Assembly: GCA_022599915.1 (NCBI GenBank)
Contig: JAHZLH010000053.1
Location: 1-64,000, forward strand
From: Actinomycetes bacterium
GTDB taxonomy: Bacteria; Actinomycetota; Actinomycetes; S36-B12; GCA-2699445
Direction of reading: 5' to 3'
DNA: 64,000 nucleotides
Shown here piece after piece: positions 22,225-62,306 of this stretch. The position numbers and the translations under genes are program-made. The notes below the pieces were generated by a model. That model was not told the DNA's origin. It saw nothing but the letters and a program-made list of their open reading frames with translations, and did not search any database. The stretch's first letter is position 1, and every line of letters begins with the position of its first letter.

Positions 22225-22247
22225 TTGTCGGTCGGTACGTTTATGCT
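22225..22247 (+). promoter_or_regulatory. RecA-NDp/PafBC-type promoter element upstream of ssrA
   Basis: TTGTCGGTC, eight bases, then TATGCT. The published LexA-independent damage promoter of mycobacteria (TTGTCRGTG-N8-TANNNT), later linked to PafBC, is matched at all but the last base of the first block, with exact spacing. Transcription would start near 22254 and run into ssrA 130 bp downstream. The match is visible; the regulation is inference. Confidence 0.5.
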
Positions 22248-22382: not shown

Positions 22383-22745
22383 GGGGGTGACAGGTTTCGA
22401 CAACGAATGTCGAGACGGGAGAAGCGAGCCGAGAAACCACTGTGATCTCGTAAACCTTCGGTGGAAAACTATAGGTGCCAAACAAAACAAGGGCACCGTC
22501 GCTCTCGCTGCCTAACAGCGAAAAGTGACGCGTTCGGCGGGAATTGTCCCCGCACCGTCGGGCGTCGTGAGGGGACTCACCAAAGGCCCGGGCCACCCGG
22601 GTCGGCGGAACATTTTTAGTGGCTGAGACCGCGTTCTCTGCGGAGTCGTAAGAAGCAGAGAGGTCGAGAACGCGCTACGCCGACTGCGCTCGGAGAAGTC
22701 CCGAATCTGCACCGTTGGACCCGGGTTCGATTCCCGGCACCTCCA
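22383..22745 (+). ncRNA. ssrA: Transfer-messenger RNA (tmRNA)
   Basis: A one-piece tmRNA of about 363 nt. The 5' arm GGGGGTG (22383-22389) pairs with CACCTCC (22738-22744) to form the acceptor stem, and the T arm CCGGG-TTCGATT-CCCGG lies just before it. The tag reading frame is 22477-22515: GCC resume codon, tag AKQNKGTVALAA, then TAA. The ending ALAA is the standard proteolysis signal. CCA is not encoded: the acceptor stem is followed by ACAA. SmpB is encoded 1.9 kb upstream. Confidence 0.95.
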
Positions 22746-22752
22746 CAACGAC

Positions 22753-44642: not shown

Positions 44643-45533
44643 GTGAAGCCGGAAGAGCGCTACGTAAAGCTGCTGGCCATCCTGCCCGTTACCCGCCCCG
44701 GTCGTTCGGCGCTGGAGTTGGCGGAGTTACTTGAACTCAAGGGAACGGATGAGAGCAAGCGCGAGGCGCTGGCGCGCGACGTTCGCTCCCTGAGCAAACT
44801 CGGCATCGTGATTAGTAACGTAGCTGAACCCGGTGGTGAAGCCACATACATTTTGGTGCCGGGCGACAGCAGAATCAGACGAGAATTCCCCGAGAACGAA
44901 TGGGCAGAACTGCTGCGTGCCCAAGAACTGGTCACTCGCCCGGTAGCGTCGGATGTAGCGGGAGCAGCTGCCAGTTCCGCACCCCAGGTTCAGATGGCGC
45001 CTCCAGCGCAGCATCTGGGTTTGGTGCAACGGGCGCTGACCGCTAGATGTGTGCTGTGTTTCAACTACAACGGCAAAGCCCGGCGGGTGTCGGTGGCAGT
45101 TCTGCATCCAGGTTCGTCTGGATGGATGGTCTCGGGGATCGATATGGACGTCTCTGAGGAACGCACGTTTCTGTTGTTGCGAATGTCAGCGGTACATCTC
45201 GAGGAACCCGGTTCAGCCATTCGCACTGAACAGCCGGCGCGGGGCAGCCCGGACCCACTGACTTGGCAGGTGGATCCGCCGCTAACCGCCCACCTCATGG
45301 TGCCGATGGAGTTTGTGGCGGATGTCGAGCAGCAGTTGGGGGCCACTGCTGCACTGGCTGAGTCCACGACTTCTACGGTCCCCATGACCGTAGAAGTCGT
45401 CAATCGATGGCCATTCCTCGCTCGCTTGGTGCAGTTAGGGCCACGCGTGCGGTTGCTGGGTCCGGCTGACCTGCGTGCCCAGTTAGACAGCCAGATGTTG
45501 CTTCCGCACATTGCCGGGTTGGAGCCCACATGA
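44643..45533 (+). CDS. pafB: WYL-domain transcriptional regulator PafB
   Basis: A 296-residue regulator. The N-terminal winged helix (ERYVKLLAILPVTRPGRSALELAELLEL) is followed by WYL-type ligand or single-strand DNA sensing domains (about 125-296, with RALTARCVLCFNYNGKAR as the WYL start). In mycobacteria PafB and PafC together activate LexA/RecA-independent DNA-damage genes by binding RecA-NDp-type promoters. Here the two genes overlap by four bases (ATGA), so the heterodimer is probably made in equal amounts. Proteasome genes, the usual neighbours, are not in this window. Confidence 0.85.
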   Translation: MKPEERYVKLLAILPVTRPGRSALELAELLELKGTDESKREALARDVRSLSKLGIVISNVAEPGGEATYILVPGDSRIRREFPENEWAELLRAQELVTRPVASDVAGAAASSAPQVQMAPPAQHLGLVQRALTARCVLCFNYNGKARRVSVAVLHPGSSGWMVSGIDMDVSEERTFLLLRMSAVHLEEPGSAIRTEQPARGSPDPLTWQVDPPLTAHLMVPMEFVADVEQQLGATAALAESTTSTVPMTVEVVNRWPFLARLVQLGPRVRLLGPADLRAQLDSQMLLPHIAGLEPT

Positions 45534-46501
45534 GCGCATTGGATACGTTGGCTCGAATTCAACGGGTAATCGCCATCTTGTCGTTGCATCCTGACGGCTT
45601 ATCGCTGGCTGTCCTGGCCGAGGAACTGGAGGTTGCCGAGCCCACCTTGCGGCGAGAGATTCTGAACTACTACAGCGTGGACGTGCCGGCAGATCAGTCT
45701 CGGGTGGGGCAGCGCCCAGAAGTTGTCGAGTTCATTTCCACCGAGGGGGAGTCGGTCGAGCCGCAGGAAGCTCCCGTGGTGCGACTGGCGGGTGACGCCG
45801 CTGAAGCGGAACTGGCTGGTAATCAATTCAGTGACGAGGATCTGGCGCAGTTGTTGCAGGCGGCGATCAGTCTGGCGGAAATGGAGCCGGACAACGAGGT
45901 GTTGAGTGCTGGGATTGAGCGACTCAACCAACTGCTTCGCGTCGAATCCGCAGAATCTTTTGATGAAGCAGTAGTGAGCCTTCGCCGGGCTATCGAGGAG
46001 CAGATTCCGGTCGAGATCGAGTATTCCCGAGAATGGCAGCCAGGGGTCAGGACCAGAGTCGTCCACCCCTATTCCTTGTTGCGTACCAACCGAGGATGGG
46101 AACTCGACGCCGGTCCGTTCGTTGCTGGTCATGCTCGCACTTACATTCTGAGTCGGATTCGTTCCCTGCAACTGCAGTCGGGCCAGCGCTTCGAACGCCC
46201 GTCAGACGTCGACCGAATACTGAAGCGGGATCGTCGTGCGGAGAGGGTGCAACTGCTGTTGCCGCAGGGGAGTCATTGGGTGGCGGATCGCTTCGCGGAG
46301 CGCACCGAAGTGGTGGATGCCGACAGCGACGACCTGGTCTTGGATGCCTTTTTCTTGCCGCCAGTGGCCGAACGCGTGGGGTTGGTGCTACTCATCGCTG
46401 GCCCCGATGCCGGTGTGCTCAAGCCGGAAAGGCACGCTGGTGCCGCTGCCGAGCTCGCCGAAAGGTTGCGGGAGCATCACGGTCTCGCGGACCGTTCCTG
46501 A
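45530..46501 (+). CDS. pafC: WYL-domain transcriptional regulator PafC
   Basis: A 323-residue partner of PafB. The HTH is at the N-terminus (LARIQRVIAILSLHPDGLSLAVLAEELEV). The WYL domain begins at about residue 150 (LRRAIEEQIPVEIEYSREWQPGVRTRVVHPYSLL), and the WCX extension at about 225-315 ends AERLREHHG. Domain order and length fit PafC. It starts inside the pafB stop. Confidence 0.85.
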   Translation: MSALDTLARIQRVIAILSLHPDGLSLAVLAEELEVAEPTLRREILNYYSVDVPADQSRVGQRPEVVEFISTEGESVEPQEAPVVRLAGDAAEAELAGNQFSDEDLAQLLQAAISLAEMEPDNEVLSAGIERLNQLLRVESAESFDEAVVSLRRAIEEQIPVEIEYSREWQPGVRTRVVHPYSLLRTNRGWELDAGPFVAGHARTYILSRIRSLQLQSGQRFERPSDVDRILKRDRRAERVQLLLPQGSHWVADRFAERTEVVDADSDDLVLDAFFLPPVAERVGLVLLIAGPDAGVLKPERHAGAAAELAERLREHHGLADRS

Positions 46502-54910: not shown

Positions 54911-55712
54911 CGTCAAGTTGCAGGGTTCGTAGTCGCAGTACCAGTATCGCCATCGGGATTCCCAGCGCGACGCCACCGACTAGCGCAACTGCCGGGCGAC
55001 CGAGGAATACGGCGTTGGCTATGACATTTCCGACATATACCCACGTCAGCGCGGTCATGGGTTGCGCGATCGGTGCTCCTGGTCGCGCCGGGAGCAGCAT
55101 CGTGAGCAGCGACATGAGAATCAGTGCCGCGATGACCCAGCCCAGGTAGTTACTTATCGGGATGCCCGGCAGTCCCGGGATCGCTGGTTCGGTACTACTC
55201 CATACCCAGTGACCTTCCGCAACCATCTGCGGGTCGAGAAACAGGTCCCAGGTCGCCAGAAGTCCGGCACCCAATGCGATGCGTGCCAGTCGATTCCAGC
55301 CAGTACGTTCGACTACTGCATGGATGGGGTAGGCCATCATCGCCCACGCCATCGGGATGAGTAACGGCACAGCGCCTAGGTGTGGCCCCAATCGATCGGT
55401 GTATTCGTACTCACCAAACGGCCACCCGGTATTGGTGCCTAGTGCCTCAATCGTCCAGCCGAAACTGCAAGCAATCGCGAAGCAGGCCAGCGTCCATGCT
55501 GCCCCTCGACTGCTCAGGCTGTGGGTCAGTGACGCGGCGAAGAGCAGTGTGACCCCCGCGATGGTTAGCGCATCACGGGTCGTGCCCTCGGTGAGAATCC
55601 ACAGAATGTTCGAAAGTACCCACAGCGCGGTCAGTGTCCAGCCAATAATGCTGCCCACCCGCTTACCGCGGTGGGATCGCTGCTGCTGGATGGCGGGGGA
55701 GGTGGTGCTCAC
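54903..55712 (-). CDS. cruF: CruF-like carotenoid 1',2'-hydratase
   Basis: A 269-residue membrane protein with seven or eight helices. The signature NTGWPFGEYEYTDRLGPHLGAVPLLIPMAWAMM (glycine-proline rich, about residues 96-128) and WDLFLDPQMVAEGHWVW are diagnostic of the CruF/DUF422 family, which adds water to the psi end of acyclic carotenoids. The product is then glycosylated by CruG. The GTG overlaps the stop of the YbaK gene (GTGA), placing it in the middle of a four-gene minus-strand run. Confidence 0.87.
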   Translation of the reverse strand: MSTTSPAIQQQRSHRGKRVGSIIGWTLTALWVLSNILWILTEGTTRDALTIAGVTLLFAASLTHSLSSRGAAWTLACFAIACSFGWTIEALGTNTGWPFGEYEYTDRLGPHLGAVPLLIPMAWAMMAYPIHAVVERTGWNRLARIALGAGLLATWDLFLDPQMVAEGHWVWSSTEPAIPGLPGIPISNYLGWVIAALILMSLLTMLLPARPGAPIAQPMTALTWVYVGNVIANAVFLGRPAVALVGGVALGIPMAILVLRLRTLQLDDG

Positions 55713-56221
55713 GATGCTGGTGGTGTTCGGTCCTGGTTGGTTGGTAGGTCACCTACTTCTGCGGCGGTGCCAGCAGTAAGGCGTAGAAGTTGAGCGTAGT
55801 TGCTCGGGAATACCCAATTGGGGTCGCCCGCCGGAACCCACATGGTGGTGGAGCGTGACAGTGAAATATCCAAGACGACGTGACTGCGGGTTTCGGTTGC
55901 GACTGGGGCGATTCCACCGGCGACGTGGCCAGTGCGTTCCTCGACTGATTCGGGGGTCATTTCGACAAGGCCTGATTCACCAAGCACTCCGTTGAGTTGG
56001 ATGGGATCTGCATCGTGCCCCTCGGGTAGTAGCACTAAAAAGAAGTGATCAGCGTTGCTGTGAAACAGGTGGCTGGTCACTATTAGTTGACCGGGGGAGT
56101 TGCTGACAATCTCGCGGGCCTGACTGATTGGTGTCGCGTCACCGCGCCAACCGAGCTCTGTCAGTCGAGCCACAACTCGCGTCACCACTGCTGGTGGCGC
56201 GGCTGACTCCCGCTCATCCAT
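55709..56221 (-). CDS. YbaK/aminoacyl-tRNA deacylase-domain protein
   Basis: A 170-residue YbaK-type editing domain. Landmarks are VSNSPGQLIVTSHLFHSN, the GLVEMTPESVEERTGHVAGGIAPV loop that holds the substrate site, and GDPNWVFPSNYAQLLRLTG-like closing helices. Free-standing YbaK/YeaK proteins hydrolyse mischarged tRNA. The catalytic lysine of E. coli YbaK is not obvious here, so activity is uncertain. The ATG at 56221 is preceded by TACGCT and six bases on the minus strand. It is first in the run leading to cruF. Confidence 0.8.
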   Translation of the reverse strand: MDERESAAPPAVVTRVVARLTELGWRGDATPISQAREIVSNSPGQLIVTSHLFHSNADHFFLVLLPEGHDADPIQLNGVLGESGLVEMTPESVEERTGHVAGGIAPVATETRSHVVLDISLSRSTTMWVPAGDPNWVFPSNYAQLLRLTAGTAAEVGDLPTNQDRTPPAS

Positions 56222-56227
56222 GATCGC

Positions 56228-56233
56228 AGCGTA
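56228..56233 (-). promoter_or_regulatory. Probable -10 box of a leaderless promoter (YbaK-cruF-cruG run)
   Basis: TACGCT on the minus strand, six bases before the ATG at 56221. It is 58 bp from the divergent damage promoter. Confidence 0.45.
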
Positions 56234-56290
56234 GTGGGTACTGGGGAGAAAAGGGACCAATCGGGTGTTCCCGACAGTAGGTCTTGACCG

Positions 56291-56313
56291 TTGTCGGACC
56301 ACTGACGTAGCGT
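56291..56313 (+). promoter_or_regulatory. RecA-NDp/PafBC-type promoter of the dnaE2 operon
   Basis: TTGTCGGAC, eight bases, then TAGCGT. The RecA-NDp consensus is TTGTCRGTG-N8-TANNNT: seven of nine bases of the first block match, spacing is exact and the -10 fits. The expected transcript start (about 56320) lies beside the LexA box. Confidence 0.6.
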
Positions 56314-56321
56314 TCACTACA

Positions 56322-56337
56322 TCGAACATATGTTCGA
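56322..56337. promoter_or_regulatory. LexA operator (SOS box)
   Basis: TCGAACATATGTTCGA is a perfect 16-bp palindrome that matches the Gram-positive/mycobacterial SOS box (TCGAAC-N4-GTTCGA). It lies at about +1 to +20 of the promoter above and would block it when LexA is bound. Confidence 0.9.
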
Positions 56338-56485: not shown

Positions 56486-56785
56486 ATGAGTCGTCGCTAT
56501 AGCGACCAAATCCGAGTCATGGTTTCCCCACCGGCGGATCCAGTCGAACCGGAACCGCCGCAGTCTTTTCACTGGCGTGGTCGCCGCTACCGAGTGACTG
56601 AGGTGCTAGCTCGTTGGACTGAGGCGGAACAGTGGTGGCGCTGGGCAGAGCACGGCTCCGACCGATTTCCTGCCGATGCGATGGTCTGGCGAGTAGCCGC
56701 ATCCCGTAGGGGCACCGCCACTGGCGTGTTTGAACTCCGTCATCGACCTGGTTCTGCCTGGTTTCTCATCCGAGCATTCGATTGA
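56486..56785 (+). CDS. DUF6504 protein, first gene of the dnaE2 operon
   Basis: A 99-residue protein of the DUF6504 family. FHWRGRRYRVTEVLARWTEAEQWW is the core, followed by VWRVAASRRG and VFELRHRPGSAWFLIRAFD. The family occurs in Actinobacteria beside dnaE2 and Y-family polymerase genes, but its role is unknown. The ribosome site AAAAGGAGG is very strong. It starts about 165 nt downstream of the predicted transcript start. Confidence 0.85.
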   Translation: MSRRYSDQIRVMVSPPADPVEPEPPQSFHWRGRRYRVTEVLARWTEAEQWWRWAEHGSDRFPADAMVWRVAASRRGTATGVFELRHRPGSAWFLIRAFD

Positions 56786-56837: not shown

Positions 56838-57266
56838 ATGAGAGCACCAGATTCTGCCGTGCCTGGTCGAGCGATCCCGCTGGCCAGTGCGGAGTTACTA
56901 ACCTCGGCGGTTAACGAGGTGGAAGCGGCATTAGTTGAACCGTCTGCAACGTTGCGTTACTCCCGGGCGCAACTAGCCGCTCGTCGAGCTGCGGCTGCGG
57001 TCTTAGCAGCATGGGCGCAGCCAGTGGGAGTTCGGGGACATCGACCGCGTGATGTCTGGCAGTTACTGCCGGAAGTAGCGCCAGGGCTTAATGAATGGGC
57101 ACAGTTTTTCACTGCAACCGCAGGAGTGTGCATCGCGGCAGAGGCTGGAGTGCTGAATGCGGTGTCTACTCGGCAAGCCGACGACATGATTCGTGATGCC
57201 CACCTGTTTCTCGAACGAGTAGTGGTCACGCTGTCGCGCGGCCCTCGTAGCACCGAATTGGTGTGA
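56838..57266 (+). CDS. SAV_6107-type HEPN-domain protein
   Basis: A 142-residue all-helical protein like the SAV_6107 HEPN family. YSRAQLAARRAAAAVLAAWAQP is helix 1-2, GLNEWAQFFTATAGVCIAAEAG the middle, and STRQADDMIRDAHLFLERVV the last helix. The RNase motif R-x4-H of toxic HEPN proteins is not seen, so an RNase role is not supported. It overlaps the dnaE2 start by four bases (GTGA), so co-translation with the polymerase is expected. An AAGGAGG ribosome site precedes the ATG. Confidence 0.83.
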   Translation: MRAPDSAVPGRAIPLASAELLTSAVNEVEAALVEPSATLRYSRAQLAARRAAAAVLAAWAQPVGVRGHRPRDVWQLLPEVAPGLNEWAQFFTATAGVCIAAEAGVLNAVSTRQADDMIRDAHLFLERVVVTLSRGPRSTELV

Positions 57267-60200
57267 TCGCGGTGGTAGTAGGAGAGCCGTTCGCGCATCT
57301 GCACACGGCATCGGCATATTCGCTGCGATATGGCGCCTCTCAGCCCGCAGCGTTAGTGGAACGAGCTGCCGAGCTAGGGCAGCCACTGCTGGCATTGACT
57401 GACCGAGGCGGCTTATATGGTGCAGTGCGATTCGCGATTGAGTGCATGGCGGCTGACATTTCGCCGGTGCTAGGAGTAGACCTGGCGGTCGCCCCCAGTG
57501 GGTTGCTGCGTCGATCCACACCGCAGCCATCGTCACGTCGCACTCCAGCTAAGGGCGGCGCCTGGGTTGAGCCCGATCATCCGCGGGTAGTGCTGCTCGC
57601 CCAAGGGCAACAGGGCTGGGCATCGTTATGCCGGTTGGTCTCGGCAGCGCATTTATCGGGTCAGCGGGGAGAACCGGTGGCAGATGTAGCTCAGATCGCC
57701 CGACATAGTGAGGGGCTAGTGCTGCTGTTGGGGGCAGAGTCGGAATGTGGTCGTGCGGTAACTGCGCATCGACTCGATCTCGCCGACCGACTACTGCGTC
57801 GATGGCGAGAAATCTTTGGCGATCGGATGCATGCTGCGGTGGCATGTCACTTGGTGCCGCAGTCGGGGGAGTCGATGGCGGGTCGGACCGGTCCAGGAGC
57901 AGATGGATTATCACTGCCGGCGGCGTCTCGGTTCTATCGCTGGGCAGTGGAACGGAATGTCTCGCCAGTTCTTACCAATGCAGTCCGTCACGCCCACCGC
58001 GAGCAGGCCCCAGTAGTCGATGTCTTGGATGCCATTCGGCGGCTAGTCCCGTTGAGCAGTCGGCATCTCAGTCGGGGGAATTCCGAGGGCTACCTCAAAT
58101 CGGCGGCGCAGATGTTCCAGATGGGAGAGCAGGTTGTTACTGCGGCGGGGTACGCCACTGATCGGGTTCAGCAGTTATTAGCGAACACCATGGCACTGGC
58201 GCAGCAGTGTGCCTTAGACCCGGTAGCGGATATGGGTATCGGATCAGTTCATGTCCCCGAATTAGATGTACTCGTGCCGGACCTGAGCCCTGGCGCTGAT
58301 CATCGAAGTGCGGCTGCACGAATGCTGCGCCAACGATGTGAGCAGGAACTACCTCATCGCTATCAGGGTGAAAGGGAGCGGCGGGAAGCGGCAATCCGGT
58401 TGGAGCAGGAGTTAGACACCATCGTGCAGTTGGGGTTCCAAGGCTATTTTCTTACTGTCGCTGAAGTTGTGGATCTGATTCAAAGCATGGGGGTGCGAGT
58501 TGCTGCTCGCGGATCAGGCGCCGGCAGTCTGGTGAACCATCTGCTGGGTATCTCAGGAGTAGAGCCAATGCGACATGGCTTGATTATGGAGCGCTTCCTC
58601 TCGCCGCTACGCCGCTCATTACCCGATATCGATATCGACGTGGAATCTGCCCGACGTACCGAGGTGTATGAGCAGATCCTGCAACGGTTCGGTGGTGAAC
58701 GCTGCATCTGCGTATCGATGATGGATACCTATCGAGTTCGTCATGCGATTCGAGATACTGGCGCCGCACTAGGGCTACCGCCAGCCGATATCGATTCTTT
58801 TGCCAAGGCTTTCCCCCACATCGCGGCCCGGGACATTCGATCGGCGTTGGCGGATCTGCCGGAGCTACGCACGAGTGGGCTAGGTCAGCTCGCTGCGACC
58901 GGTGGGATGGATCGATTCTTAGATCTGGTGGAGGCGTTAGACGGCTTACCACGGCACGTGGCGCTTCATCCTTGCGGTGTGCTGTTGTCAGACGCTTCAT
59001 TGCTTGACCGGACCCCGGTGGAAGCCTCATGGCAAGGGTTCCCCATGAGCCAGTTCGATAAAGACGATGTGGAAGAAATGGGCTTTCTCAAACTGGACGT
59101 GTTGGGTATTCGCATGCAATCCGCTATGGCTCACGCCGTCACCGAGGTGCAGCGAGTTACCGGCGCAGAGGTAGATATTGATCGCGCCCCGCTAGACGAT
59201 GACGACACTTTCCAACTGATCCAGTCCGCCAAGACCTTGGGCTGTTTTCAGATTGAGTCACCTGGACAGCGAGAGTTGGTGGGGAAGTTTGCTCCGGAGA
59301 ATTTCGACGACATCATCATCGACATTTCACTGTTCCGGCCAGGACCGGTAAAGAGCGACATGATCAGCCCATTCTTGCGGGCCCGACAGGGCTGGTCGCT
59401 GCCGGAGTATGTGCACGAAGATCTAAGACCGGTATTAGCCGAGACCGCCGGTGTGGTGGTGTTCCACGAACAGGTAATCAAGTTGGTGTCGATCATGACC
59501 GGTTGCACCTTGGCGCAAGCGGACGAAGTCCGCCGCACCATGGGCAGTCCGGAAGGGCAGCAACGGGTGCGGGGCTGGTTCTATCCGACAGCCATGGCGC
59601 AGGGCTATTCGCTAGCTACGGTCGAGGAGATCTGGGATGTATTGCAGGCCTTCGCATCTTTTGGCTTCTGTAAAGCGCATGCGGCAGCCTTCGCGCTGCC
59701 GACCTACCAGTCAGCATGGCTCAAGGCGCATTACCCAGCAGCCTTCTTGGCTGGGGTGCTTACTCATGATCCCGGTATGTATCCCAAGCGACTGATTCTG
59801 GACGATGCTCGCAATTTTGGAATTCCTATTCTCGGCTTGAACATCAATCAATCTGATCGGGTGTATCGAGTGGAGCAGGTAGGGGAGTCTTGGGGTATCC
59901 GACTGCCACTCGCTGAGGTGAAGGGGATTTCGGCGGCGGAGGAATCTGCGATTGTCGCTGGTCAACCGTATGCCTCGCTGACAGAGGTCTGGCAACGCAG
60001 TGGGTTGTCTCGGCCGGTCGCAGAACATCTGGTGCTAGCCGGAGCATTCGATGATTTGCATGGGCTCGGTAGTAGCAGACCAGGCCGGTTAACTCGACGG
60101 GACTTACTGCTGCAAATCATCGAGTTGGAGCGACATACCCGGGCAGCGCAGGGTGGACGTGGCACGAGGCGCGCCGCTCGGCGCGCCACGCCACCAGCCG

Positions 60201-61036
60201 AAACGAGTTCGATCGACCCCGCGATCGCTGCGCGACAACAATCCTTAGCGCCAGCTCCGGCGCAGGACCCAGATCAAGTTGAGGTGCAGTTCGCGCTGGA
60301 TCTGTTCCAGCCACCGGAACCGATGCCCAGCGGTCTGCCAGAAATGGGTAGTGGCGAGAAGGTACGGGCTGAGGTGGAAGTTTTGGGGATGGATGTCAGC
60401 AGCCACATTGTGTCGTTCTACAACCGGATGCTGGCCGACCTGGCAGTAGTACGTTCCCAAGACCTACTTAACTGCCGCTCCCAGTCCGAGGTTTTAGTTG
60501 CTGGGGTCAAAGCGGCAGTGCAGACGCCACCGGTACGGAGTGGCCGGCGAGTGGTTTTTCTGACGCTAGATGATTCCACCGGTCCGGTGGACGCCACCTT
60601 CTTTGAGGATGTGCAAGGTGACTATGCGACGACGGTGTTTCACTCCTGGTTATTGCTAGTCCGCGGAAAAATTCGCCGTACCGGCCGACGAGGCATTTCG
60701 TTACGAGCCACTGGTTGTTGGGAGTTAGGTGAGGTTTGGCAGCTGTGGCGGGAGGTCGGTGCTGAGGGAGTGCAGCAGATGTTGGCTGCGGCGCCAGCGC
60801 CGGATAGCGCTGGTCCAGCCGCCGCGAACGACTCCGATCCCCGGCGGCGGACTGCTGCTGGTGGCATGGGGCAACGCCGCCGCGTGTTGGTGCACGCCAG
60901 CGGATTCCGAATGTCGCCTTACGCTGATGTCAGGCCAGCAGGCGAGGAAGCGGGTAAGCCGCAGCCGCGGAGGACCTCCCGGGGCGGTGCCCCCGGAAAG
61001 TTATGGCACTCCAGTCCAGGCAGTAGCGGATGGTGA
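57263..61036 (+). CDS. dnaE2: Error-prone DNA polymerase DnaE2
   Basis: A 1257-residue C-family polymerase for translesion synthesis and damage-induced mutagenesis. The PHP domain opens FAHLHTASAYSLRYG. The catalytic palm carries RSLPDIDIDVESARR with the aspartate pair, after VRVAARGSGAGSLVNHLLGI. Helix-hairpin-helix and OB parts lie near the C-terminus, ending HASGFRMSPYAD and KLWHSSPGSSG, the DnaE2 signature. QFALDLF at about residue 1005 is a candidate beta-clamp-binding motif. It is about 150 residues longer than typical DnaE2, mostly through linkers in the PHP region, around residue 970 and near the end. dinB follows after 10 bp. Confidence 0.93.
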   Translation: MIAVVVGEPFAHLHTASAYSLRYGASQPAALVERAAELGQPLLALTDRGGLYGAVRFAIECMAADISPVLGVDLAVAPSGLLRRSTPQPSSRRTPAKGGAWVEPDHPRVVLLAQGQQGWASLCRLVSAAHLSGQRGEPVADVAQIARHSEGLVLLLGAESECGRAVTAHRLDLADRLLRRWREIFGDRMHAAVACHLVPQSGESMAGRTGPGADGLSLPAASRFYRWAVERNVSPVLTNAVRHAHREQAPVVDVLDAIRRLVPLSSRHLSRGNSEGYLKSAAQMFQMGEQVVTAAGYATDRVQQLLANTMALAQQCALDPVADMGIGSVHVPELDVLVPDLSPGADHRSAAARMLRQRCEQELPHRYQGERERREAAIRLEQELDTIVQLGFQGYFLTVAEVVDLIQSMGVRVAARGSGAGSLVNHLLGISGVEPMRHGLIMERFLSPLRRSLPDIDIDVESARRTEVYEQILQRFGGERCICVSMMDTYRVRHAIRDTGAALGLPPADIDSFAKAFPHIAARDIRSALADLPELRTSGLGQLAATGGMDRFLDLVEALDGLPRHVALHPCGVLLSDASLLDRTPVEASWQGFPMSQFDKDDVEEMGFLKLDVLGIRMQSAMAHAVTEVQRVTGAEVDIDRAPLDDDDTFQLIQSAKTLGCFQIESPGQRELVGKFAPENFDDIIIDISLFRPGPVKSDMISPFLRARQGWSLPEYVHEDLRPVLAETAGVVVFHEQVIKLVSIMTGCTLAQADEVRRTMGSPEGQQRVRGWFYPTAMAQGYSLATVEEIWDVLQAFASFGFCKAHAAAFALPTYQSAWLKAHYPAAFLAGVLTHDPGMYPKRLILDDARNFGIPILGLNINQSDRVYRVEQVGESWGIRLPLAEVKGISAAEESAIVAGQPYASLTEVWQRSGLSRPVAEHLVLAGAFDDLHGLGSSRPGRLTRRDLLLQIIELERHTRAAQGGRGTRRAARRATPPAETSSIDPAIAARQQSLAPAPAQDPDQVEVQFALDLFQPPEPMPSGLPEMGSGEKVRAEVEVLGMDVSSHIVSFYNRMLADLAVVRSQDLLNCRSQSEVLVAGVKAAVQTPPVRSGRRVVFLTLDDSTGPVDATFFEDVQGDYATTVFHSWLLLVRGKIRRTGRRGISLRATGCWELGEVWQLWREVGAEGVQQMLAAAPAPDSAGPAAANDSDPRRRTAAGGMGQRRRVLVHASGFRMSPYADVRPAGEEAGKPQPRRTSRGGAPGKLWHSSPGSSGW

Positions 61037-61046
61037 GGAGAGAGCG

Positions 61047-62306
61047 GTGAGTCGTAATCAGTTGCGTCGGCCCAACGCAGCGACGATCTCGGCATCTGAT
61101 GACAGCGACTGCAGCATCCTGCATGTCGATATGGATGCTTTTTATGCTTCGGTGTCGCTAGTAGATCGTCCGGAGCTGGTGGGAACCCCTGTCATCATCG
61201 GTGGGGCAACGAATCGAGGGGTGGTGCTGTCAGCCACCTACGAAGCGCGGGAACTAGGAATCCATTCGGCTATGCCGATGTCCCGCGCACGGCGACTTGC
61301 ACCGCAGGCGGTGGTGTTGCCACCAGATTTCCCTCGTTACAGCGATGTCAGTTCCTCGATCATGACGCTCTTCCAATCGATTACCCCCTTGGTAGAGCCG
61401 CTCAGTCTCGATGAAGCTTTTCTGGATGTTGCCGGGGCTCGGCGTCGAGTGGGAAGCGCTCGACAGGTTGCCCAACTGATTCGGGATCGAGTACATGACG
61501 AGCAAGGCATCACCTGCTCGGTAGGTGCAGCCGCGACCAAGTTTGTGGCCAAACTCGCCTCAACTCTCGCCAAGCCGGATGGCATGCAGGTAGTGCCGCC
61601 AGATCAGGTGATCAGCTTCTTGCATCCGCTACCGACCGGATCGCTCTGGGGAGTGGGCGAGAAGACTGAGGCCACCCTGTCTCGATTTGGATTGGCCACC
61701 GTGGGCGATATCGCCGTCACCCCGGTAGCGACACTTCAGCGCATTGTTGGGGATGCTGCCGGTCGGCAACTCGCTGAACTCTCCTGGGGTCACGACCCTC
61801 GGCGAGTGCAGCCGCATGAGCCAGATCGCAGTATTGGCGCGGAGGAGACTTTCGGTGTTGATGTCGATGATCCGGATGTTGTAGTGCGGGAGTTGCTGCG
61901 GCTATCGGACAAAGTTGCTGCTCGACTGCGGCGCGGTGGCTACGTGGGGCGAACGGTGCAATTGAAAATCAGGTTTGCCGACTTCAGCACAATCACTCGG
62001 TCCCGTACGCTACGGGACCCAACGGATATCGGGCACGAGATTTATGGCACTGCAGTAGATCTCTTTGCTGGTCTCGGGCTGCAGCGGGCTCGCCTACGGT
62101 TGGTGGGGGTCCGGGTTACTGGGCTACTACCGGTTTCTGGTGCTCCACGGCAGCTGCTGCTCGATCCGGCTGAGCCCAACCGCCGCGAAGTGGAACAGGC
62201 CATGGATCGCATCTCACAGCGATTCGGTTCTGGCGCAGTTCGCCCAGCACGGCTCGTGCAATCGCCCGAGCCAGAGCCTCACAATTCGCCTGAGAGCAGC
62301 CGATAA
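61047..62306 (+). CDS. dinB: Y-family DNA polymerase IV (DinB)
   Basis: A 419-residue lesion-bypass polymerase. The catalytic acids are present: LHVDMDAFYASV (about residues 30-41) and PLSLDEAFLDV (about 128-138). The HhH fingers follow (LWGVGEKTEATLSRFGLATVGDIA), then the little-finger domain. PRQLLLDP near the C-terminus may bind the sliding clamp. It is therefore an active Pol IV, not the inactive ImuB that partners DnaE2 in the mycobacterial mutasome. The GTG at 61047 follows GAGGAGAG, and upstream in-frame sequence belongs to dnaE2 in another frame. Confidence 0.93.
   Translation: MSRNQLRRPNAATISASDDSDCSILHVDMDAFYASVSLVDRPELVGTPVIIGGATNRGVVLSATYEARELGIHSAMPMSRARRLAPQAVVLPPDFPRYSDVSSSIMTLFQSITPLVEPLSLDEAFLDVAGARRRVGSARQVAQLIRDRVHDEQGITCSVGAAATKFVAKLASTLAKPDGMQVVPPDQVISFLHPLPTGSLWGVGEKTEATLSRFGLATVGDIAVTPVATLQRIVGDAAGRQLAELSWGHDPRRVQPHEPDRSIGAEETFGVDVDDPDVVVRELLRLSDKVAARLRRGGYVGRTVQLKIRFADFSTITRSRTLRDPTDIGHEIYGTAVDLFAGLGLQRARLRLVGVRVTGLLPVSGAPRQLLLDPAEPNRREVEQAMDRISQRFGSGAVRPARLVQSPEPEPHNSPESSR

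Follow-up and report, generated by a model that had tools for sequence, protein, structure and literature searches.

A single promoter before an operon for error-prone polymerases combines a sigma-A-type -35 element, a PafBC/RecA-NDp-type -26 element, a common -10 element and a predicted LexA operator. It was found in the window, the whole stretch of 64,000 nucleotides analysed here, and its elements and their spacing are conserved jointly in relatives, whose recA promoters are built differently. On the sequence and its conservation we lean towards a promoter under a LexA veto that would be recognised in two ways, by sigma-A alone or with the help of PafBC; LexA cleavage would be required and PafBC would amplify.

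Layout of the promoter, its operon and its regulators

On the + strand the elements follow in the order TTGACC (56284-56289), G, TTGTCGGAC (56291-56299), CACTGACG, TAGCGT (56308-56313), TCACTACA and TCGAACATATGTTCGA (56322-56337), with N8 between TTGTCGGAC and TAGCGT, 8 nt between TAGCGT and TCGAACATATGTTCGA, and a spacer of 18 nt from TTGACC to TAGCGT. The original prediction had placed the -26/-10 element and the LexA box exactly, and the LexA palindrome is indeed perfect in the window sequence. It overlooked a third part, the conserved sigma-A -35 TTGACC that uses the same -10. The features of the promoter and its neighbouring genes are as follows:

56284..56289, + strand: -35 element TTGACC, sigma-A type (sequence, and conservation of TTGAC in relatives; recovered by an exact-match hybrid search)
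56291..56299, + strand: -26 element TTGTCGGAC, PafBC/RecA-NDp type (sequence and conserved core; motif also at recA and polA)
56308..56313, + strand: -10 element TAGCGT (TANNNT), common to the -35 and -26 modes (sequence; equal position in relatives' promoters)
56319..56321, + strand: presumed start region of transcription, roughly 7 nt past the -10 (promoter geometry only)
56322..56337, + strand: predicted LexA operator TCGAACATATGTTCGA, an SOS box covering the bases presumed to be transcribed first (sequence; box kept in relatives)
55709-56329, - strand: divergent gene for an aminoacyl-tRNA editing domain protein (longest ORF, its ATG at 56329 inside the LexA box)
56486..56785, + strand: DUF6504 protein, encoded first in the operon (Pfam PF20114, E 6e-17)
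56838..57266, + strand: HEPN_SAV_6107 protein (Pfam PF18726, E 2e-27)
57263..61036, + strand: DnaE2-like DNA polymerase III alpha (Pfam DNA_pol3_alpha and others)
60729..62306, + strand: DinB / Pol IV ORF (Pfam IMS domains; NCBIfam PRK03858 above cut-off)

The divergent tRNA-editing gene more likely starts near 56221, so that the promoter stays intergenic. The operon runs in one direction, in the order DUF6504, HEPN_SAV_6107, DnaE2-like alpha subunit and DinB. The DnaE2-like protein scored above the cut-off of the TIGR00594 superfamily model and below those of the NCBIfam DnaE and error-prone polymerase models. The true start of DinB is probably close to 61100, as judged from its conserved domain, which begins near 61104.

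No site in the window other than the LexA box comes within one mismatch of TCGAACN4GTTCGA, and the 2.44 Mb genome contains just two perfect boxes, of which it is one. Among the remaining boxes, the best lie upstream of lexA (two), recA and ruvC, indicating that such boxes mark a real SOS regulon. The promoter thus has an SOS box near its inferred start, in a genome that encodes both LexA and RecA.

The RecA-NDp match at 56291-56313 carries two lower-weight mismatches to tTGTCRgtg-N8-TAnnnT, with AC instead of "tg" after TTGTCRG. Judged in the window alone it is weak, the 2-mismatch consensus giving 13 matches vs 4.1 expected, and comparative evidence carries it. In the promoter, TANNNT follows the TGTCR -26 motif at the fixed spacing (TTGTCGG-N10-TAGCGT), and the strict core TTGTCRG-N10-TANNNT occurs at six sites in the genome: recA, polA (two near-duplicate contigs), the operon, a point 136 bp ahead of ssrA, and one position within a gene. 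The genome's recA carries both a LexA box and the RecA-NDp core.

On the near-duplicate contigs C47 and C67 (L005, L008), an identical core sits where a promoter would be expected, just before the likely start codon of polA; the thioesterase-like neighbours of polA differ slightly, suggesting strain variants within the assembly. The ssrA gene (tmRNA, tag AKQNKGTVALAA) lies at 22383-22746 of the window, with its exact upstream core at 22225-22247. Of 30 loci only 4 have an NDp core within the 450 bp upstream of ssrA, and its distance from the gene varies; such cores are therefore not generally conserved, and the site before ssrA is probably a chance occurrence.

A candidate pafBC pair lies within the window at 44643-46501:

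44643..45533, + strand: divergent pafB-like gene (position and 4 bp overlap with pafC; weak WCX match only, PF25583, E 0.016)
45530..46501, + strand: pafC-like gene with a WYL domain (PF13280; profile top match 6sj9)

The pafC-like gene is the one recognisable WYL gene in the genome. A profile of PafC relatives matched PafBC 6sj9 best (E 4.7e-6), followed by M. smegmatis PafC 7p5x (E 2.5e-5). Single-sequence searches of the window's PafB and PafC against the PDB returned no matches, and PafB, being too divergent, matched no Pfam WYL model. Inspection by eye of the listed ORFs beside the pair revealed no recognisable pafA or tat genes. PafBC of the relatives was detected by WYL profile, since BLAST with PafC missed less divergent PafBC of other families.

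Conservation and loss of the promoter elements

For 75 same-order loci, the sequences upstream of the HEPN gene were aligned on the LexA box, and 74 promoters, the window's included, were counted as having a LexA box with at most 2 mismatches before the operon; most of these boxes are perfect. The core TGTCRG-N10-TANNNT is present in the 70 bp preceding the box in 54 of the 74 promoters (dinucleotide-shuffle mean 0.02, maximum 1), and it is kept amid variable flanks in five families. The alignment across relatives that the original prediction had proposed as a check therefore bears out the joint conservation of the -26/-10 element and the LexA operator. When promoters were aligned by genus, with core positions fixed by construction, the -35 bases emerged unforced and most remaining positions carried low information.

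TTGAC stands 1-4 nt ahead of TGTCRG in 50 of the 54 core-bearing dnaE2-operon promoters and in none of 58 at recA (Fisher p = 1.5e-27, a guide only, as related sequences are non-independent). Its spacer to the shared -10 is 16-19 nt, with 18 in 32 cases and 19 in 13. Of 70 same-order recA loci, 58 have the NDp core, in no case with an adjoining TTGAC, and the LexA box, where found, lies 52-178 bp upstream of it, in agreement with the earlier contrast with recA as a gene served by two separate sites. The label of RecA-NDp promoter first given to the operon's promoter holds for the conserved -26/-10 core. A plain RecA-NDp promoter is rejected, given the TTGACC at 56284-56289 beside the -26, an element absent from same-order recA promoters, and we call the promoter a hybrid.

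A search for TTGAC-N1..4-TGTCRG-N10-TANNNT, with no LexA box required, matched 68 sites, spread over 53 of 99 genomes, vs 3 for the reversed control; by our own count from coordinates, 51 of the 68 precede the DUF6504-HEPN-DnaE2-DinB operon, and ten of those outside it belong to a single element repeated within genus g32. The hybrid -35/-26/-10 arrangement is almost unique to the dnaE2 operon. The g32 genomes G071 and G098 (L371, L372 and elsewhere) contain 6 and 4 copies, respectively, of a TTGACGTTGTCAGTGCCT-like hybrid without a LexA box, apparently as part of a repeated element.

The loss of one element from relatives that keep the operon, named at the outset as evidence that would count against the prediction, was encountered in part: genus g3 (of the window's family) and family f3 retain both operon and LexA box but have no -26 core. 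Most f3 members and genome G004 keep the NDp core at recA, indicating that the -26 is dispensable at the operon. The same-genus G002 (TGTCGT) and same-family G003 (TGGTCGG) are each one mismatch off the core. Some members of genus g10 and of f7 keep the -26 with the -35 lost or altered, composites without any -35 occur in genus g72 (L319-L321) and part of g10, and seven promoters have neither -35 nor -26 by strict patterns. Loss of the -26 did not correlate with loss of PafBC, as f3 genomes retain WYL pairs. The same-family G005 keeps the -35, the -26 and the LexA box, although neither a WYL protein nor a relative of PafC was detected in its assembly, which is 95% complete.

Class-wide, the -26/-10/LexA composite is present in 153 of 395 genomes (reversed control 0/395), and with the -35 in 57 of 395 (control 0). 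Many of the inspected composite sites, in many families, precede the HEPN/DUF6504/DnaE2 operon; others precede ruvCA, recA (genus g61), DUF222/HNH genes and a gene that we take to be ImuA'-like from the look of its sequence and from a RecA match below threshold. The full hybrid is present, among named examples, in Enemella and a Mycobacteriales MAG. The composite was not found at the Streptomyces HEPN loci examined, which are uninformative for the comparison.

In the recA composite of g61 (L338, G184 and similar sites), the LexA box abuts the -10, unlike at recA in the order to which the window belongs. In genus g39, family f9 (L322, L324, L327, L328, L330-L332), the composite precedes DUF222/HNH-type genes, and the predicted g39 start codon inside the LexA box (ACATGTTCGA) suggests leaderless transcripts. 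A contig labelled Spirochaetaceae (CAN_BIN15, L242) has a promoter sequence identical to that of L301 from G190, a genome placed in the window's class; the label on the CAN_BIN15 record is probably wrong.

Regulatory logic

In the reading we lean towards, one sigma-A promoter (-35 TTGACC, -10 TAGCGT, spacer 18) would drive the DUF6504-HEPN-DnaE2-DinB operon, with the PafBC -26 element within its spacer and the LexA operator over its start site. LexA would act as a veto, blocking initiation by both routes from the first transcribed bases; because its box overlaps the promoter, LexA-independent induction is unlikely. RecA-triggered LexA cleavage would free RNA polymerase to start in two modes. 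Sigma-A could use the -35/-10 pair, whose suboptimal spacing would give a moderate output, or ssDNA-activated PafBC on the -26 could adapt sigma-A in the way worked out for M. smegmatis and raise that output. In what is termed sigma adaptation, PafBC binds the -26 motif and is positioned between sigma-A domain 4 and the DNA of the promoter (PMC11804915). RecA and PafBC both respond to ssDNA (PMC11804915), and the two inputs are hence not independent.

The original prediction proposed an AND gate here, which the sequence does not imply, since a conserved TTGAC -35 belongs to the promoter; because of it, PafBC need not be obligatory. In its strict form, TTGAC at 18-19 nt would be too weak alone, PafBC would be essential for the open complex and LexA cleavage would also be needed, with polymerases made only under both signals. 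The spacer is above optimal length in most relatives, and in g72 (L319-L321) and the part of g10 that lack a -35, PafBC would be obligatory if the -26 is used. Specific conservation of the -35 at the operon (50/54 vs 0/58 at recA) would, however, be unexpected for an inert element, and induction of the mycobacterial mutasome is reported to be partly redundant between SOS and PafBC (PMC10421592). We regard the strict AND gate as unlikely overall; its case is strongest for the lineages without a -35.

More doubtful still is a plain SOS promoter, comprising the -35/-10 and the LexA box, with the -26 unused by PafBC because the latter has diverged or the motif is a relic. Such a promoter would suit g3 and f3, where the LexA box persists and the -26 core is missing, and has a parallel in the Streptomyces venezuelae dnaE2-dinP operon, for which LexA control was reported and no PafBC motif was mentioned (PMC9380542), but it does not account for a -26 core maintained in five families while its flanks vary, or for the identical motif at the genome's recA and polA. 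That the RecA-NDp match is a mere accident of the intergenic region is very improbable despite the frequency of the 2-mismatch consensus in the window, and is rejected by the shuffles (mean 0.02 vs 54/74 relatives) and the reversed-pattern controls (0/395 vs 153/395 genomes).

The LexA-vetoed, two-mode reading can be extended, tentatively, to the class. In the hybrid conserved there, sigma-A alone (through the -35) and PafBC-adapted sigma-A (through the -26) may compete for one -10 under a single LexA veto, and lineages may differ in the recognition element kept, so that the gate would range from LexA-only (f3, g3) via dual-mode (most) to strict AND (most of g72, part of g10). We put this forward as plausible, short of probable.

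The error-prone polymerases of actinobacteria are a driver of adaptive mutation. PMC11804915 treats as an open question why these bacteria maintain two damage pathways that are both triggered by ssDNA, and one promoter reading both, together with natural variants in which one or the other element is missing, makes their division of labour testable at the level of a single promoter. The arrangement also bears on structure: PafBC goes in between sigma domain 4 and the -35 DNA, and a conserved -35 lying eight or nine bases before the -26 would be expected either to compete or to cooperate with it.

Comparison with known damage-responsive promoters

In the mycobacterial recA region, P1 is the PafBC-dependent RecA-NDp promoter and P2 the LexA-dependent one. 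The operon resembles that gene in receiving two damage circuits, through a common -26/-10 core and the same LexA box family, and differs in that its elements form one promoter instead of two separate ones. The earlier statement that most mycobacterial genes use one circuit was too strong, as several PafBC-regulon genes carry both motifs (PMC8223512).

Mycobacterial dnaE2 and imuA'-imuB are reported to be under SOS and PafBC control, with partial redundancy (PMC10421592, citing Adefisayo 2021); in biofilms, dnaE2 depends mainly on recA, not pafBC (PMC12702967). The operon is like these mutasome genes in placing mutagenic polymerases under both pathways. For the mutasome the evidence is genetic and points to partly redundant control (PMC10421592); the genes in the window's operon are DUF6504-HEPN-DnaE2-DinB.

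LexA ChIP-seq places S. venezuelae dnaE2-dinP under LexA control (PMC9380542). That damage-induced operon shares with ours the DnaE2 and DinP genes and upstream LexA boxes (PMC9380542); unlike in the window, the M. smegmatis PafBC motif is reported not to be conserved there (PMC9380542).

The M. tuberculosis lexA-adjacent operon (printed as Rv2019c-Rv2017c and taken here as Rv2719c-Rv2717c) likewise has both kinds of site, three SOS boxes and a PafBC motif, in one intergenic region, and the part of PMC8151990 consulted does not describe a single hybrid -35/-26/-10 promoter whose start site carries a LexA box. Dual control of mutagenic polymerases is already known; in the literature surveyed, to which Mueller 2018 and Adefisayo 2021 did not belong, no single conserved promoter joining -35, -26, -10 and SOS box was found for this operon class-wide.
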